Shown here: positions 30,291 through 38,183 of the stretch, one piece after another
Layout: the number at the start of each line of letters is the position of its first letter
Position numbering within the stretch: position 1 is the first letter of the stretch
Origin: Cryptosporangium phraense
Lineage (GTDB): Bacteria; Actinomycetota; Actinomycetes; Mycobacteriales; Cryptosporangiaceae
Reading direction: 5' to 3'
Assembly: GCF_006912135.1 (NCBI RefSeq)
Contig: NZ_VIRS01000007.1
Coordinates: forward strand, 1 to 64,000
DNA length: 64,000 nt
The notes under the pieces: generated by a model
Told to the model about the DNA's origin: nothing
The model's input: the letters and a program-made list of their open reading frames with translations, nothing else
The model's database searches: none
Position numbers and translations under genes: made by a program

Positions 30291-31041
30291 GGTAGGCGTC
30301 GTTCGGGCCGTCGACCCGGAGCACGGACAGCGCCGGGACCTCGGCGGCCAGCCCGGTCAGGGCCGACGTGACCCACTCGAGGTAGGCGAGCCAGGCCAGC
30401 CCGAGCTCGGTCGGCAGCAGGTCGGCGAGGTCGGACTCCCGGCTGAGCACGGCGACGGTCGGACAGCGCACCGCGCGGTAGAGGTGCAGCAGGTCCAGGC
30501 TCTCGACGGCGCGGAGCGCTTGTCCGAGCGTCGCCGGGACGCTTCGCGCCAGATGGTCGGAGAACGCGACGATCACTGCGTCCCGGTTCGCGTCCGGGGA
30601 CAGCGCGGCGAGCTGCTCGGGCCGGGTCGGGTTGCCGTAGCCGTCGATCGTGACCGCGAGCGGGCACTCGGGGTGGCGGGCCGCCCAGCCGGCCGCGGTC
30701 GTGCCGCCGAGCCCGTGCCCGATCACCGCCGGCCGGTCGAGCCCGAGCGCGTCGACGACCGCGGCGACGTCGCCGAGGACCGCGTCCCAGGTCCAGTCCC
30801 CGTCGCCGGACCGCCCGTGGCCCCGGGGCTCGATCGCGACCGGCCGGTAGCCCAGCCCGCGCAGCAGCGTCCCCACGACGTCCCAGGACGCGGCCGTGCC
30901 CCGGGCCGACGGGAGGAGGACGACGTCGCCGCCCCAGCCGTCGCCGGACCCGCTCTGCGGGTGGCGTCCGAAGTCGCGGACGGAGAGCGGGACGGCGGCC
31001 GGGACGAGCAGGTCAGCGGGCGGCAGCCCGAGATCGTTCAT
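30220..31041 (-). CDS. Alpha/beta-fold hydrolase with Gly at the nucleophile position
   Basis: 273 residues from ATG 31041. Fold markers are the oxyanion strand VVLLPSARGTAASWD, the EPRGHGRSGDGDW loop and the elbow VIGHGLGGTTAAGWA. The elbow has Gly where the nucleophile (Ser/Asp/Cys) should be (GHGLGG rather than GHSLGG). The protein may be catalytically dead, or may be a non-hydrolytic member. It sits downstream of the CopD/CtaG gene with a 29-bp overlap, same strand, and its 3' end runs 71 bp into the efflux-pump gene. Confidence 0.75.
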   Translation of the reverse strand: MNDLGLPPADLLVPAAVPLSVRDFGRHPQSGSGDGWGGDVVLLPSARGTAASWDVVGTLLRGLGYRPVAIEPRGHGRSGDGDWTWDAVLGDVAAVVDALGLDRPAVIGHGLGGTTAAGWAARHPECPLAVTIDGYGNPTRPEQLAALSPDANRDAVIVAFSDHLARSVPATLGQALRAVESLDLLHLYRAVRCPTVAVLSRESDLADLLPTELGLAWLAYLEWVTSALTGLAAEVPALSVLRVDGPNDAYLTQPEQLTDLLADLLPAPAALLA

Positions 31042-33868
31042 GGTTGTCACTGTCCCGCCTGCGTCGACCGAATATCCGGGCCGCACGCAGTACCCGCGCC
31101 GCACCGCGGTCGGCCAGGAAGAGCAGGCCGGCGAGCGCGCCGACGACGGCGAGGAGGGTGCCGCCGACGGCCTGGTCCTGGGCCTGGCTGGTGCTCCCCC
31201 AGGGCCACGGGAGCAGCATCACGCGCTGCAGGCCGGTGTACCAGTCGGGGGCGACGACCCGGCCCGTCCCGGCGAGCAGGGCGCCCGCGGTGGCGGCCGC
31301 GGCGGCGGTGGCGGCCGCGACCAGGGTGCGGGTCCGGTCGGGGCGGCGGCCTCCCGGCCGCGGGTCCGGTCCGGTCACGAACCAGGCCAGGAGGACGCCG
31401 GTGGCGAGGAGGTAGCCGTCGAGGAGGAGCTCGGTGGCGTAGGACCAGCGGGCCTGGTCGAAGAGGGGGGTGAAGTAGATCGCGAACGGGCCGGCGGCCC
31501 AGAGCAGGACGACCGTAGCTGGGTGGGTGAGGGCGCGCGCGGTCCGGGAGGTGAGGGCCGTGCGCAGCCAGGCGCCGGCGCCGGTGGGGTCCGACGCGGC
31601 GCCGTCGGCGGCGGCGGCGGCGTCGGCGGCGTCGGCGGCGTCGGCGGCGGCGCCGTCGGCGCTGGCCGAGGCGGCGCTGTCGATGCTGGCCGAGACGGCG
31701 CTGTCGGTGCTGGCCGAGGCGGGCGGGCGCGGGGTGCGGAGCATGGCGGGATGCGAGGCGCGGAGCGCGAGCGTCAGCGGGGTGGCGCGGACCAGCAGGA
31801 GCGGCGCGACGAGCGCGAGCAGCAGGTGCTGGACGATCGCGACGCTGAAGAACACGGTCGTGTACCGCCCGACGCCGCTGCAGGTCGCGACCACGACTAC
31901 CAGGACTCCGGCCAGCCAGGACACCCCCCGCCGGGCCGGCCAGGGGATCCCGGCCCGGTGCGCCCGCGACTCGAGACGCAGGTAGCCGACGACCGCGGCC
32001 GCGCACAGCAGGAGCCAGACCAGGTCCACCGTCCAGCTGGTCGCGAGCGTGCCGACCGACACGACCGGCGGCAGGTCGAAGCCGAGCATCTGGACGCCGG
32101 CCGACTCGTGATGCGGGGCTCCGGCGCCGGAGTCGAGCGGCGCCGGGACCCGCGACAGCGCGACGGTCAGCCCGGTGGCCGCACCGAGCACGACCAGCTC
32201 CAGCACCGCGAACCGCAGGAACGGCCCGGGGAGGCCGCGTCCGATCGCCGGGATCGTCTGGGTGCGGTGCCAGCGGCCGATCGCCGCGACCACGGCGAGG
32301 GCCAGGAGTTCGAGGGCGGCGAGCCGCCCGTAGGCGCTGTCGAGGCCCGTGTCGGAGGGGGCAAGGATCAGGATCGCGTGCAGGATCCCGGTCGCGAGGG
32401 CGACCGGGACGGCGATCAGGCTCAGCCGGGAGTACCGCTCGGCGGTGCGCTGCAGGTCGCTGTGTCGCAATGCGGATCGGGTTCCGCGGGCCGCGGGCTG
32501 GTTTCGCCGGCCGGCGAGGCGGTCTACCGGGCCGGCGAGGCGCTCTACCGAGCCTGCGGGGTGGACTACCGGGCCTGCGGAGCGGCCTTCCGGGCCTGCG
32601 GGGCGATCTTTCGGGTCGGCGGCCGAGGCGGCGGCTGCGCCGGCGGGGTCGGCGTCCGCGGCGGCGGGTGAGTCGGCGGCGGCGGATGAGTCGGCGGCGG
32701 TCGAGGCGTCAGCGGCCGAGGCGGCGGATGAGTCGGCGGCCGAGGTGGAGGTGGAGGTCGAGGCGGCGCGGGGCGCGTTCGCCGCGGGGCGGGGCCCGGT
32801 CATGTCGCCGCGAGGCGCGGCCAGGGAACTCCGGGCGCGGAGCAGCAGGGCGCCGAGTGCGCCGGTGCAGAGGGTGAGGCTGAGCAGGTGCAGCAACTGG
32901 GCACCGGCCGCGAGCTTGAGATCGGCGACCACCACCTCGTCACCGACGAACGCAGACGGCGCGACCCCGAGCAGCGCCGCCCCGAGCGCCGCGACCGGAG
33001 CCCGCCGGACCAGCAACAGCGCGGCCACCGCGGCCACGACCGCGACGGCCCGGGCCCGCCCGGCCGGAGTCTCCAGCCCGACGTTCCCCAGCGCGCCGAC
33101 GGTGAGCACCTCCCCGACCGGCCGCCCGAGCTGGTCGGACACGGTCAACACCCAGGCCACGACCGCGGCCACCACCCACACGACCGCCGCGCGCGCGGCC
33201 ACCGCCCGATGCCGCACACCGCTGCCCGCCTGGACGCCCCCGCCCCCCAGACCCGCACCACGGCCGAGCGCGCGACCAGCAGCGGGACGGCCGGACATGG
33301 GCCCAGCGGTGGCATTGGCGCCGGAGCCGAGCGCGGTGCCGCCGGCGGAGCCAGCGATGCGGCCGGGCGTGCGGCCAGCGGCAGAGCCGACGGCGGAATC
33401 GCCGCCGGAGCCGGGCGCCCTGCCGGCGGGGCGGTCTTCCGGGCCGGCGGGGCGGCCATCCGCAAGGCCAGCCGCAGAGCCGACGGCGGGATCGGCGCCG
33501 GAGCCGGGCGCCCGGCCGGCGGCAGAGCCAGCGATGCGGCTGGTCGCGGGGCCGGCGACAGGGTGGGGCATGCGTTTGGTGGCGCGGCCGGCGGCAGGGG
33601 GTTCCGGGCGGCTCCAGAACGCGGCGGCCAGGGAGCTGCCGGCGACCAGCGCGGCGGCGAGGTCGCCGACGAGACGGGCGAGTGGCAGGCCCCAGTCGGT
33701 GAGGGCGCCCGGGGCCGGGAGTCCCGGCACCATCGCCCGGCCGGCGCCGTCGCCGTAACCGAGCGCGACCGCGGTCGTCCCGGCCGCGATGGCTCCGGCT
33801 GTGACCCCGACGACCAGCGCGGCCTTTTCGCGAGGAATCAAGTTCTGCAGAGGTGTGGCGTGCCCCAT
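31013..33868 (-). CDS. CopD-CtaG fusion: copper resistance D domain plus cytochrome c oxidase assembly protein
   Basis: 951 residues from ATG 33868, preferred to an upstream in-frame start. The N-terminal half is a CopD-like bundle (helices at about 15-40, 60-85, 225-245 and after; a HLLSLTLCTGALGALLL-type segment). The C-terminal half is CtaG-like (FSVAIVQHLLLALVAPLLLV, then LLDGYLLATGVLLAWFVTGP). This fusion is known in actinobacteria for copper uptake and cytochrome-oxidase copper delivery. Three long low-complexity loops interrupt it: about residues 92-218, a second of about 110 residues near 385-490, and a third Ala/Asp/Ser-rich one near 710-755. They make the protein far longer than the usual about 650 residues. 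Confidence 0.85.
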   Translation of the reverse strand: MGHATPLQNLIPREKAALVVGVTAGAIAAGTTAVALGYGDGAGRAMVPGLPAPGALTDWGLPLARLVGDLAAALVAGSSLAAAFWSRPEPPAAGRATKRMPHPVAGPATSRIAGSAAGRAPGSGADPAVGSAAGLADGRPAGPEDRPAGRAPGSGGDSAVGSAAGRTPGRIAGSAGGTALGSGANATAGPMSGRPAAGRALGRGAGLGGGGVQAGSGVRHRAVAARAAVVWVVAAVVAWVLTVSDQLGRPVGEVLTVGALGNVGLETPAGRARAVAVVAAVAALLLVRRAPVAALGAALLGVAPSAFVGDEVVVADLKLAAGAQLLHLLSLTLCTGALGALLLRARSSLAAPRGDMTGPRPAANAPRAASTSTSTSAADSSAASAADASTAADSSAAADSPAAADADPAGAAAASAADPKDRPAGPEGRSAGPVVHPAGSVERLAGPVDRLAGRRNQPAARGTRSALRHSDLQRTAERYSRLSLIAVPVALATGILHAILILAPSDTGLDSAYGRLAALELLALAVVAAIGRWHRTQTIPAIGRGLPGPFLRFAVLELVVLGAATGLTVALSRVPAPLDSGAGAPHHESAGVQMLGFDLPPVVSVGTLATSWTVDLVWLLLCAAAVVGYLRLESRAHRAGIPWPARRGVSWLAGVLVVVVATCSGVGRYTTVFFSVAIVQHLLLALVAPLLLVRATPLTLALRASHPAMLRTPRPPASASTDSAVSASIDSAASASADGAAADAADAADAAAAADGAASDPTGAGAWLRTALTSRTARALTHPATVVLLWAAGPFAIYFTPLFDQARWSYATELLLDGYLLATGVLLAWFVTGPDPRPGGRRPDRTRTLVAAATAAAAATAGALLAGTGRVVAPDWYTGLQRVMLLPWPWGSTSQAQDQAVGGTLLAVVGALAGLLFLADRGAARVLRAARIFGRRRRDSDNHERSRAAAR
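32513..32617. repeat. 21-bp tandem repeat, five copies inside the CopD-CtaG gene
   Basis: Five degenerate 21-bp units start at 32513, 32534, 32555, 32576 and 32597. In the coding (minus) frame they give seven-residue repeats of the type DRPAGPE, GRSAGPV, VHPAGSV, ERLAGPV, DRLAGRR. Being in frame, they lengthen a loop without breaking the protein. Confidence 0.8.
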
Positions 33869-35158
33869 GCCCTCACCTACGCACCCCGCCACCGGTCAGT
33901 TCACCGCGCCCACGGGCGATCCCTGCCGCGGGCCGCCGCGCCCCACCCGTACCAGCCTCGCGAATCGCAGCCGCGCGAGCCGCGGAGGCGCGAGCGGGCC
34001 GCGAGCGCAGGAGCGCGCGGGCACCCTGATGCGAAGACCCGGACGCGCGGACGCCTGGGCGCGAGCAGACCCGAGAGTGCGGAGGCCCGCCCGCACGCCC
34101 AGACGCCCAGACGCCCAGACGCACGGACGCACGGACGCCCAAACGCACGGACGCCCCGAGGCCAGGAGGCCCGACGCCTGAGGCGCTAACCCGCGGAGCC
34201 GCGAAAGCGCGGAGGCGCTAAGCCGCGGAGGCGCGCAGACGGGAAGAGGCGCACGTGGGAGGCCAGGAGGCGAAAGCGCGAACTCCCGGGACGCAGGCGC
34301 GACAGCGCGAACGCGGCAGGCGCAGACGCCCAGAGGGGGGCGCGCCCACGCGGAGGCACGAGGGCGAAGGCGCGCACACGCGACGGCGAGAAGGTCCGGA
34401 CGTGCGCACACGCGAAGGCGCGAACGCCTCGGTGCCCGCGACCGCGACGGCACGAACGCAGCGGGCCCGGACGCCCGGACGCAGGCCGGGAGGCCCAGAC
34501 GCAGGGCACGCGCAGCACGGAAGGTGGAGGCGCCCGGACGCCCGGACACGCGGACGCCCGGACGCCCGGAGGCGCGGACGCCCGGACGCCCGGAGGCGCG
34601 GACGCCCGGACGTCCGGAGGTGCGAAGACACGAAGACACGAAGACGCGGAGACGCGGAGGCACGAAGGCGCGCAGAAGCGCGGACGCGAAGGCGCGCAGA
34701 CGCGGAGGCTTCGAGGCGCGGACGCCGGAGACGCGCCCGGACGCGAGAAGCGCAGAGACGGGGGCGCAGGAACCGCCCCGACGCCAAACGCGCGAAGACG
34801 CAAAGGCCCGGACACCCGGCTGCGCGGACGCAGCAGGCCCGGAGGCACAGGCCCAGGTGACGCGCGGACACGGCCGGCGAAGGCACAGCAAACGCCCGGA
34901 TCCCCAACGTACGGAGACACAGAATCGCACAGGCCCAGAGACGCGGACCCGCGGCGGCGCGGACGCAGAAGGCCCGGATCCGCAGGCGCAGGGACTCACA
35001 GGCGCGGAGGGCGAAGGCGCAGGAAGCGCCCGAACGCCCGGCGTCCCGGGGCCCTCGACCAGCACCGCGAGCCCAAGCCCACCAACCCGCCCCGCGGCCC
35101 CCACCGAACCCCGCCGGCCCAGGCCCCCGGCCCCACGGCCCTCCGGCCCCGGCCGCCC
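33869..35158. repeat. 1.3-kb non-coding region with a degenerate octanucleotide array
   Basis: From about 34020 to 35060 the sequence is iterated 8-bp units: ACGCCCGG, AGGCGCGG, AGACACGA, AGACGCGG, AGGCACGA and relatives. Exact runs include ACGCCCAG three times near 34098-34121 and ACGCCCGG/AGGCGCGG alternating near 34530-34620. Because the unit is not a multiple of three, every frame stays open for hundreds of codons with 24-nt periodic peptides such as GRPGVRAS; I therefore do not call a gene. No ribosome-binding site or domain supports translation. The array lies between the CopD-CtaG start (33868) and the LuxR stop (35159), so it follows one gene and precedes the other on the minus strand. 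Confidence 0.75.
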
Positions 35159-38122
35159 TCAGCTCACCGCACCATCCAAAAGACCCGCCCTCCGCGCCAA
35201 CGCCGCCGCCTCCGTCCGGCCCCCCGCGCCCAGTTTCGCCATCAAATTCGTCACGTGCACGCTCACCGTCTTGTCGCTGATGTACAGCGCCCGGCCGATC
35301 TGCCGGTTCGTGCGGCCCAGGGCCAGCAACTCCAGCACCTGCTGTTCCCGGGGGGTCAGCTCGGCTCCGTCCCGGCGCTCGGGGACGGCCGCCGCGCGCG
35401 GCGACCCGGGCAGGGCCAGCGCGGCCAGCTCGGCCAGCAGCGGCTCGGCGCGCAGGGCGGACGCGACCTCTCGGGCGGTGGCGGCCTCGGCCTCGGCGGC
35501 GGTCAGATCACCGGTGGCCGACAGGGCGGCGGCGAGGCGGGTCGCCGAGCGGGCCTGCTCGAACGGGTGCCCGTAGCCGAACGCGTCGGCCGCCGTGCGC
35601 CAGGCGGCGACCAGGTCGGCGGCGTCCGGGGCGTCGATCGCGGCGGCCCAGCGCAGCCTCGCCCACTCGGCCTCGGCGCGGGCCACCCAGGCGACGCTCT
35701 CCGGGCCGCCGATCACCCCGCGGCGGCTCCGGGCGGCCTCGGCGTGGTGACGGACGTCGTCGATCAGGCTCGCTCCGCGGGTGACGGCGGTGGCGCGGTC
35801 GGCCCGGGGCGCGCCCGCCACCGAGCCGGCGAACGCGGCCAGCGCGAGCGTGTGCAGCCGGTAGCGGGCCTCGAACCAGTCCTGCCCCCAGAGCGTGCAG
35901 ACGGTCTCGACGACGTCGTCGTGGGTGGACAGTGCGCGGGCGACGTCGCCGCGCTGGCCGTACGTGTCGACGAGCGCGGCGCCGCCGATGATCGCCAGCA
36001 CCGCGTCGCGCTTCCACCACGGGCGGTTGGTCTTGGCCCGGCGGACCGCGTCGGCGGCGCCGCGACCGGCGTAGACGGCCAGGCTCGCGGCGGCCAGGCC
36101 GGCCCGGGCCAGCGCCGGGGCGTCGGGGTGCGCGTCGGCCCGGCGGACCGCGTCGTCCCAGCGGCCGGTCGAGTAGTCGGCCTGGACGAGCATGATCTCG
36201 GCGTCGGCCGCGTACGGGGCCCAGGGCCGGCCGCCCTCCCGGCCGATGCGCACGACCTCGGCGAACGTCTCGCCGGCGGGATCGAGCTGGCCCCGTTCGT
36301 GCTGGTAGATCGCGAGGCTGTAGACCGAGCGGAGCTTCGCCCGCAGGTCGCCCGATTCGCGGGCCCTGGCGATGCTCTCCCGGATCAGCCGCTCGGCGTC
36401 CTCCGGGGCGCCGCGCCAGCGCTCGACCCGGCCCCGGGTGGTGACCGCGTCGGCCTCGACGTTCGGGGTACCGACCTGCACGGCGACCGCGCGGGCCTCG
36501 TCGGCGTAGCGGATCGCCTCGTCGACCGTGCGGTCGTTGCCGGACAGCGACCGGGCCAGCGCGGCCAGCGCCCGGGCCCGCAGCGCGCTGGGCGGCTCCT
36601 CGGGGACCGCGTCGAGGGCCTGCCGGGCCAGCGCGACGACGTCGTGCCCGCTGTCGAGCGCGAGCGCGTGGTCGGCCAGCTCGATCAGCAGTGTGGCCCG
36701 GACGCCGGCCGGGGCGTCACCGGGCAGGCGGGCCAGCGCCTCCTCGATCACGTGCACGGCCCGGAACGGGTTGCCGGCGTGCGACGCCGCCCACGCGGCC
36801 TTGCGGGGCAGGTCGGCGACCGTGCGGGGGTCCTGGACGAGCGGGGTGAGCTCCTGGGCGGCCTCGTAGAGCCGTAGCGCCTCACCGGGGGCGGCGATGC
36901 GCATCGCCTCGTCACCGGCGCGGATGCCGGCGTCGAACGCGGTGGGCAGGTCACCGGCCTCGCGGGCGTGCCGGGCCAGGTCGGCGTCGGTACCGGGCAG
37001 TTCGGCCGACGCGATGACCTGGGCGAACTGGGCGTGGTGCCGGCGACGCTCGCCGGGCAGCAGGTCGTCGTAGACGGCCTCGGCGAGCAGCGCGTGCCGG
37101 AACGCGTACCCGTCGGACCCGGTGCGGTCGAGCACGTACGCGTCGGACGCCTCGCGCAGCGCGGCGTCGAGCGCGCCGTCGTCGAGGCCGGCGACGCGGG
37201 CCAGCCGGTCGTGGCTGATCTCCCGGCCGGCGACCGCGACGACCTGCAGGACGTGCCGGGTCGCCGACGAGAGCCGCTCGAGCCGGAGCAGCAGCAGGTC
37301 GGCCAGGTTGCGGGGCACCCCGGGCGCGGGCCCCGGCCCGACCCCGACCTCGGCCAGCAGCTGCTCGGCGAAGAACGCGTTGCCCTGGGCCCGGTCGAGC
37401 AGGTCGGAGAGCGCGCGGTCGTCGAAGTCGCCGCCCGAGTCGCCGGCCAGGCCGCGCAGGATCGCGGCCACGTCGTCGCGGGGCAGCGGTTCCAGCGGCA
37501 GCCGCAGCACCCCGGGCAGCCGGCCCCACTCGAGCACGACCGAGCGCAGCGGGTGACGCCGGTGCAGGTCGTCGGAGCGGTAGGAGCCGACGAGGACGAC
37601 CGGCCCGTCGGGCTCGGCGGCCAGCCGGGCCAGCAGGAAGCCGAACAGGTCGCGGGTGGCGCCGTCGGCCCAGTGCAGGTCTTCGACGACGAGCAGCACC
37701 CGCCGGTCGGCCGACAGGTCGAGCAGCGCGCCGAGCACGGCCTCGTAGAGATCGGCCGGGTCGAGCCGGCCCTCGCCGCCCTCGGACCCGACCATCCGGC
37801 GGTGCGGCAGCAGCCGGGCCAGCGGCGGGTAGTGGGCCCGCAGCGTGGCCACCGCCTCGGGCTCGTCCCGGGCGAGGCGCCCGAACGCCTCGCTGACCGG
37901 CAGGAACGGCACCGCGTCGCCGCCGAAGCTGACGCAGTGCCCGACCAGGACCAGCGCGCCGTCGGCGGCCGCCGCGCGGGCGAACTCGCGCAGCAGCCGC
38001 GTCTTGCCGATGCCGGCCTCGCCGGAGACGAGCGACGCGGCCGGCGGGCCGGGCGGCAGCAACCGGCCGAGCAGGGCGAGTTCGTCGTCGCGGCCCACCA
38101 GCGGCGTCGGCTCGGTCGTCAT
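35159..38122 (-). CDS. Large LuxR-family regulator with N-terminal AAA ATPase (LAL type)
   Basis: 987 residues from ATG 38122. The ATPase has Walker A SGEAGIGKTRLLREFAR near residue 35 and Walker B VLLVVEDLHWADGATRD near 140. A long TPR-like helical middle (about 380-900) follows, then the C-terminal LuxR HTH (about 915-980): LTPREQQVLELLALG and ISDKTVSVHVTNLMAKLG. LAL regulators sense a ligand through the ATPase/TPR part and activate transcription; the target is not evident. The gene stands alone. GACAAT (38134-38129) ends 6 nt before the ATG, suggesting a leaderless start. Confidence 0.93.
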   Translation of the reverse strand: MTTEPTPLVGRDDELALLGRLLPPGPPAASLVSGEAGIGKTRLLREFARAAAADGALVLVGHCVSFGGDAVPFLPVSEAFGRLARDEPEAVATLRAHYPPLARLLPHRRMVGSEGGEGRLDPADLYEAVLGALLDLSADRRVLLVVEDLHWADGATRDLFGFLLARLAAEPDGPVVLVGSYRSDDLHRRHPLRSVVLEWGRLPGVLRLPLEPLPRDDVAAILRGLAGDSGGDFDDRALSDLLDRAQGNAFFAEQLLAEVGVGPGPAPGVPRNLADLLLLRLERLSSATRHVLQVVAVAGREISHDRLARVAGLDDGALDAALREASDAYVLDRTGSDGYAFRHALLAEAVYDDLLPGERRRHHAQFAQVIASAELPGTDADLARHAREAGDLPTAFDAGIRAGDEAMRIAAPGEALRLYEAAQELTPLVQDPRTVADLPRKAAWAASHAGNPFRAVHVIEEALARLPGDAPAGVRATLLIELADHALALDSGHDVVALARQALDAVPEEPPSALRARALAALARSLSGNDRTVDEAIRYADEARAVAVQVGTPNVEADAVTTRGRVERWRGAPEDAERLIRESIARARESGDLRAKLRSVYSLAIYQHERGQLDPAGETFAEVVRIGREGGRPWAPYAADAEIMLVQADYSTGRWDDAVRRADAHPDAPALARAGLAAASLAVYAGRGAADAVRRAKTNRPWWKRDAVLAIIGGAALVDTYGQRGDVARALSTHDDVVETVCTLWGQDWFEARYRLHTLALAAFAGSVAGAPRADRATAVTRGASLIDDVRHHAEAARSRRGVIGGPESVAWVARAEAEWARLRWAAAIDAPDAADLVAAWRTAADAFGYGHPFEQARSATRLAAALSATGDLTAAEAEAATAREVASALRAEPLLAELAALALPGSPRAAAVPERRDGAELTPREQQVLELLALGRTNRQIGRALYISDKTVSVHVTNLMAKLGAGGRTEAAALARRAGLLDGAVS

Positions 38123-38183
38123 GAATCCATTGTCGCCCTCGGGTCCGACAGAATTTCCGGCTCCGCCACCGGCGAACATCGGA

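Follow-up and report, generated by a model that had tools for sequence, protein, structure and literature searches.

A long degenerate octanucleotide array between a LuxR-type regulator gene and a CopD fusion gene in Cryptosporangium phraense

The genome of Cryptosporangium phraense contains, between two genes, about a kilobase of DNA that reads as variants of a single eight-base word, and this raises the question of how such a tract arose and whether it has a function as a gene, a regulatory element or a mobile element, or needs none. The tract lies in the window analyzed here, a stretch of 64,000 nucleotides at positions 1 to 64,000 of contig NZ_VIRS01000007.1. Its neighbors are a LuxR-type regulator gene of 1006 amino acids with AAA_16 and GerE domains (35159-38179, minus strand) and a CopD/Caa3_CtaG fusion gene (31013-33868, minus strand), such that the order along the minus strand is the LuxR gene, the block, and then the fusion. 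The CopD open reading frame is listed from a GTG at 33892; the gene is counted here from the ATG at 33866-33868.

A worn repeat with an eight-base unit

The array is real, and it is an eight-base repeat that has become worn. Identity at lag 8 over 34020-35060 is 0.531, compared with a mean of 0.335 (sd 0.015, maximum 0.382) in 1000 simulations of a Markov null, and further autocorrelation peaks are present at lags 16, 24, 32, and 40, so that the original prediction of an octamer array of about 1 kb, for which peaks at 8 and its multiples had been expected, is borne out. Scanning of lag 8 through the window in 200-bp steps gives a top value of 0.70 at 34551, whereas the window mean is 0.29. An eight-state circular profile, trained de novo from random starts with insertions and deletions allowed, returns the consensus GC[GC]CGGA[GC], and the array scores +314 bits under this profile as against -81, -88, and -95 for three shuffles. 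Autocorrelation, profile and phasing together place the degenerate array at 33959-35060 on the plus strand, where it consists of about 142 octamers with the consensus A-[CG]-G-C-[GC]-C-G-G/A, 112 of which are complete, with 50 positions deleted and 24 inserted.

Little of this array is well preserved. TRF calls period 8 at 34095-34178, 34531-34618, and 34537-34704, and the longest perfect period-8 run anywhere in the window is a segment of 28 bp with ACGCCCAG units (34095-34122, plus strand). The best-preserved part (34531-34624, plus strand) is composed of 24-bp blocks of three octamers each, present in 3.9 copies with 94% matches according to TRF and containing a 40-bp exact repeat at a distance of 24. 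Outside of the short perfect runs of at most 28 bp and this 94-bp stretch of 24-bp blocks (94%), the array is degenerate. The octamers are contiguous and lack spacers, which distinguishes them from CRISPR and other spacer-bearing repeats. T is scarce on the plus strand of the array (27 of the 1041 bases at 34020-35060), and the T-poor block extends beyond the limits first proposed for the array, 34020-35060: in 60-bp steps T remains at four or fewer from 33961 to 35160, and a 200-bp scan delimits the block at 33925-35210.

Probable growth of the array in one lineage

Three other genomes of the genus (G001, G002, and G003) were compared, and the gene pair is kept in two of them, G001 and G003. 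A search for the same locus in related genomes had been suggested along with the idea that the array is the decayed relic of an expanded microsatellite, and its outcome agrees with that idea: the LuxR stop and the CopD start are separated by 31 bp in both relatives and by 1290 bp in the window. A TCA triplet at 33901-33903 (minus strand) aligns with the LuxR stop of these relatives and is 32 bp from the CopD start, compared with 31 bp in the relatives, and because this stop triplet has survived, the block appears to have grown in this lineage, at the point where the LuxR gene ends. The last LuxR residues differ between species. The extra DNA of the lineage, defined by the two short relatives and by composition, thus runs from the relic of the old stop to the present one (33904-35158) and is T-poor on the plus strand; at its edges (approximately 33904-33958 and 35061-35158) it is T-poor or C-rich, with no clear period of 8. 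No CopD match was found in G002 within the 17-kb region examined. We note that three copies of a unit of about 50 bp lie directly behind the LuxR orthologue of G002 (L071 9255-9406), so that a tandem repeat of a different type occupies the same gene end in another species.

We regard it as very probable that the array is a simple sequence repeat of 8-bp units, intergenic, long and degenerate, which grew by slippage and has since partly decayed. In such a history, a short octamer lacking T, located where the LuxR gene has its 3' end, would have been duplicated by replication slippage and would have grown by one to three units per step to about 1.2 kb, and the product would have been eroded through substitutions and indels while parts of it were re-amplified; its position between genes would have made it tolerable, and no sequence-specific function would be required. 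Slippage is supported by the 31 bp of the relatives as against 1290 bp here with the relic of the old stop retained, by the presence of purer, recently duplicated pieces inside worn ones, by the several repeat periods seen in the genus, and by the near-perfect tracts of a second array, on contig C26, that is described below.

The order of the units fits this reading in part. Phased units are 64.5% identical at a distance of one unit, compared with 61.3% when the unit order is shuffled (z 3.0), and identity is 0.645 at a distance of four units as well (z 2.8), whereas z ranges from -0.9 to 1.4 for distances of 2, 3, 5, 6, 8, 10, 12, 15, 20, 30, and 40 units. The gradual drift of the unit along the array that had been proposed is therefore mostly unsupported, apart from the likeness at distances of one and four units, and the fact that identity is independent of distance beyond four units counts against slippage, since duplication that is strictly local would be expected to produce a steeper gradient. 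Repeated local duplication, which had been put forward on the strength of the drift, does find support: 12 exact repeats with a length of at least 13 bp occur within 64 bp, whereas 200 shuffles of the unit order yielded 1.6 on average and never more than 7, and the longest of the 12, 40 bp at a distance of 24, is inside the 24-bp blocks of 34531-34624. Exact repeats more than 200 bp apart number six, versus a mean of nine in shuffles. Recent local duplication is present and is restricted to a few places, and the remainder of the array is a collection of mixed variants of one word.

The variants themselves also differ from those of plain decay, which is a further observation against slippage. 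T occupies the two unit positions with a C majority in 12 of 268 cases and A the three positions with a G majority in 79 of 405 (Fisher p ~4e-9; A in 39 of 272 with p ~1e-4 when position 8 is omitted), an odd asymmetry because plain decay should give T as readily as A. Unit positions 2 and 5 are mixtures of C and G, the base in one unit being uncorrelated with that in the following one (p 0.63 and 0.28), and position 5 is associated within the unit with positions 6 and 8 (p 0.007 and 0.001). The non-majority share varies from 7% to 54% by unit position (chi-square p ~9e-28), and conservation is still uneven among positions 1, 3, 4, 6, and 7 (p ~3e-4). The mixing of C and G may date from the growth phase, through exchange between distant units or through slippage of blocks that were already mixed; alternatively, a constraint may act.

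Slippage on this scale would meet little opposition from repair. The MutS_V domain was not found in any of the four genomes of the genus, in a search that was positive for 11 of 14 control genomes, and NucS_C was found in all four; the genus seems to have NucS as its only mismatch-repair route. NucS is described as correcting transitions, with little activity on transversions and no correction of indels (PMC8228993), and canonical mismatch repair is likewise described as handling loops of more than a few bases poorly (PMC4060949). Loops of at least eight bases would be poorly seen by any mismatch repair, and since NucS is blind to indels, no known repair would oppose such growth. This argument is weak, because canonical repair is itself poor at loops and the lack of MutS is near-universal in Actinobacteria, in almost all of which it is stated to be absent (PMC5290159); repair permits growth of the array and leaves its growth at this particular site unexplained. 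Arrays of this type are natural test sites for slippage tolerance in genomes with NucS and without detectable MutS.

Other arrays in the genome and genus, and known repeats

A second octamer array is present in the same genome, on contig C26, where it lies behind ssb (NCBIfam) and reaches the contig end; the two small open reading frames that accompany ssb in front of it are presumably rpsR and rplI. Near-perfect tracts at 102.22-102.39 kb (L069 4219-4386) comprise four copies of CTTCGCGC and 17 of GCTTCCGG and its variants. Without the pure tract, the C26 tail scores 2.2 and 2.6 bits, versus -37 to -41 for shuffles, and outside of this tract its identity at lag 8, 0.339, is not in excess of the mean over lags of 0.335; the part at the contig end, with 15.7 bits, does no better than its shuffles (14.0, 10.1, and 19.4). 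The consensus shared by the window and C26 arrays emerges de novo, and the two arrays may belong to one family. Also in this genome are an A-poor, T-rich degenerate stretch near a contig end (C20, 183.09-184.29 kb; L186 16201-17400), which includes a longer repeated block of words, smaller arrays on C6 at 39.97 kb and on C34 at 54.5 kb (different word), and a degenerate 13-bp array of about 48 copies and 0.6 kb between convergent genes (C6, 119739-120368), in which A makes up only about 3% of the plus strand. Among the relatives, G003 has about 19 clean octamers, AAGCGCGG and GGACGCGG (L120 2625-2776), preceded by a gene that we take to encode a sigma factor, G002 has six ACGCTCGG units at 2.2 Mb, and G001 has an A-free repeat of about 17-18 bp (GTGCCGTGCGTGGCGCG; L184 2850-3060) behind an rplI-like gene, a gap that is occupied by the C26 octamer array in C. 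phraense.

A survey of intergenic regions with a minimum length of 150 bp in 1,264 kb of sequence, 864 kb from C. phraense and 400 kb from G002, identified 15 of 241 regions with a 160-bp stretch at z >7. The best periods are 18 (three regions), 14, 15, and 30 (two each), and 8, 13, 16, 21, 27, and 28 (one each); six of these regions have periods that are not multiples of three (8, 13, 14, 14, 16, and 28), and the multiples of three may include missed genes, as the gene caller was home-made. Intergenic arrays with periods of 7, 8, 13, 14, 16, and 17 occur in the sampled genomes. We therefore rejected the notion that period 8 is special, as the sampled regions show many other best periods and just one of the 15 has a period of 8. 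Among arrays whose period is not a multiple of three, the one in the window is the most widely covered, with 570 bp at z >4 and 450 bp for the next, in a ranking that also scored six hand-picked regions; three regions with periods of 15, 18, and 21 are covered more widely and may be missed genes. In the arrays first examined, the upstream gene mostly has the T-rich strand as its coding strand, with a single exception, but a transcription-linked strand bias was likewise rejected, since with co-directional neighbors the T-rich strand and the gene direction are the same in four regions and opposite in four (three convergent regions and one divergent region were left unscored).

Several classes of short repeats invite comparison. 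The STRR of filamentous cyanobacteria are short-unit, partly degenerate intergenic arrays of heptamers, and judged by description only they resemble the window array in being short-unit, partly degenerate and intergenic, whereas their unit is of seven bases and their hosts are cyanobacterial. It had originally been stated that no standard actinobacterial element with this period was known; a position outside of the recognized kinds is not supported, as long simple sequence repeats (LSSRs) with units of 5-11 nt are known (PMC4679880) and both the genome and the genus hold further intergenic arrays. As recounted in PMC4679880, the 2007 LSSR survey of Mrazek et al. covered units of 5-11 nt, found heptamers to be the commonest, and proposed slippage, which is taken to explain most LSSRs; three Actinobacteria were among the ten genomes richest in such repeats. 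The window array resembles an LSSR in that it is tandem, has an 8-nt unit that falls within the 5-11-nt range, and is longer or more regular than expected by chance for the genome; it differs in being far more degenerate, with perfect runs of no more than 28 bp in about 1.1 kb, and in having an octamer rather than a heptamer as its unit. It is thus ordinary in kind, and most likely an unusually long and worn member of the long simple sequence repeats. The TAACTGA heptamers, which PMC4679880 describes in marine Beggiatoaceae, some Cyanobacteria and Bacteroidetes, with arrays of up to 43 copies in some genomes, are also short direct repeats between genes; they are made of one fixed heptamer, are often situated beside start codons and have been given a proposed regulatory role, whereas the window array is a worn octamer, GC[GC]CGGA[GC], behind a gene in another phylum, and does not belong with them. 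Short tandem repeats are, on average, stated not to be enriched in bacteria (PMC12699852), and no actinobacterial octanucleotide array of this type was found in the literature searched. As this locus demonstrates, a short-period array on the scale of a kilobase can exist in a large actinobacterial genome at a site where congeneric relatives have none.

Alternative readings of the array

The uneven conservation of the unit lends itself to a different reading, in which the octamer would be held by constraint, with an A..C.CG core, free choice of C or G at positions 2 and 5, and a near-absence of T on one strand, and the array would be a cluster of 8-bp protein-binding sites serving as a regulatory or chromosome-organizing scaffold under selection. 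We consider this very unlikely. It draws on the strongly unequal conservation by position (7% to 54%, p ~9e-28) and on the in-register correlation of other arrays with the window profile (0.89 for C26, 0.79 for C20, and 0.83 for G003), although the column-permutation P values are just 0.013, 0.064, and 0.047 and the likeness is not independent, because those arrays were found using the window consensus. Allowing up to two mismatches, the window pattern has 60 matches in its own genome, including 19 places outside of the C7 and C26 arrays, as compared with 10 matches at 10 places for the single permuted pattern used as a control. Across the order, however, the word is not favored, as three exact copies of the consensus are present in 28 of 397 genomes and those of two permuted words in 40 and 33, and we rejected a privileged octamer at the level of the order on these grounds; the reversed word, which in this order-wide search matches the C. 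phraense genome 11 times, was not used as a null since it coincides in part with a rotated form of the window word. The C26 tail, with 2.6 bits and no lag-8 excess, and the lack of the block at this site in two relatives argue in the same direction. Were the constraint to be genuine, it would, together with the register shared with unlinked arrays, point to a recurrent octamer scaffold, as a candidate binding array for a protein or as the outcome of a copying mechanism in which units become mixed and T is avoided. No evidence emerged for the nucleoid-protein or topological site that had been listed among the candidate roles. A role of the array in RNA form, as a terminator or as a processing or pausing element downstream of the LuxR gene, is also highly improbable. 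The array does lie directly behind that gene on the same strand, and the minus strand of 34020-35019 folds at -540.1 kcal/mol as against a shuffle mean of -518.3 (z -2.3, with none of 20 shuffles as good), but repeats favor self-pairing in any case, the region 33500-35500 has no Rfam match at the gathering score, and no terminator-like site was found within 33700-35400. Nor does the absence of the array at this place in two relatives fit such a role, or the even split, four to four, between T-rich strand and gene direction in the sampled skewed regions.

The abrupt presence of the block, as opposed to 31 bp in two relatives, might also be accounted for by insertion of a mobile or foreign element carrying the repeats, with duplication of a target site of about 15 bp, and a 15-bp near-repeat with 13 of 15 matches does flank the block (33896-33910 and 35159-35173, plus strand), the right copy overlapping the last bases of the LuxR gene. 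Shuffling produced a near-repeat of this quality in 48 of 2000 trials, and 59 of 2980 randomly drawn pairs were as good, a chance of about 2%, and we have not relied on it as a target-site duplication. The repeat occupies nearly the whole block, the block contains no gene-like open reading frame with a codon signal, and the longest one lacks a Pfam match, such that insertion offers a slim prospect at best. That same open reading frame (402 amino acids, 33896-35104, minus strand) is stop-free across the whole array, and a genuine repetitive protein encoded by it or by another array frame is scarcely credible. The array is unlikely to be coding, as had been predicted, and it does not have the properties of a gene for a repeat protein: identity at lag 3 is 0.274, versus 0.361 in the LuxR gene and 0.387 in CopD, so that no three-base periodicity is evident; G+C content at the three codon positions of the 402-aa frame is flat, at 0.78/0.75/0.77 compared with 0.82/0.54/0.96 in LuxR; a Pfam search with the frame at E 0.001 returned no match; single-base gaps occur in many units throughout, and the frame is not kept by indels in threes; and the site is without an array in two relatives. 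The frames are open because T is scarce. All six had been expected to be free of stops, and stops are indeed few (eight, versus about 35 expected from the genome composition), although only one frame, on the minus strand, is entirely stop-free, and the remaining five have one to three each. The accompanying warning of mis-annotation was justified, as arrays of this type do create long false open frames such as the 402-aa one, and at least one other array in the genome runs into a contig end. We note that the CopD/CtaG gene contains repeats of its own (31591-31766 and 32509-32768), with periods of 18, 21, 24, 33, and 42 that are multiples of three, in contrast to the intergenic period of 8.
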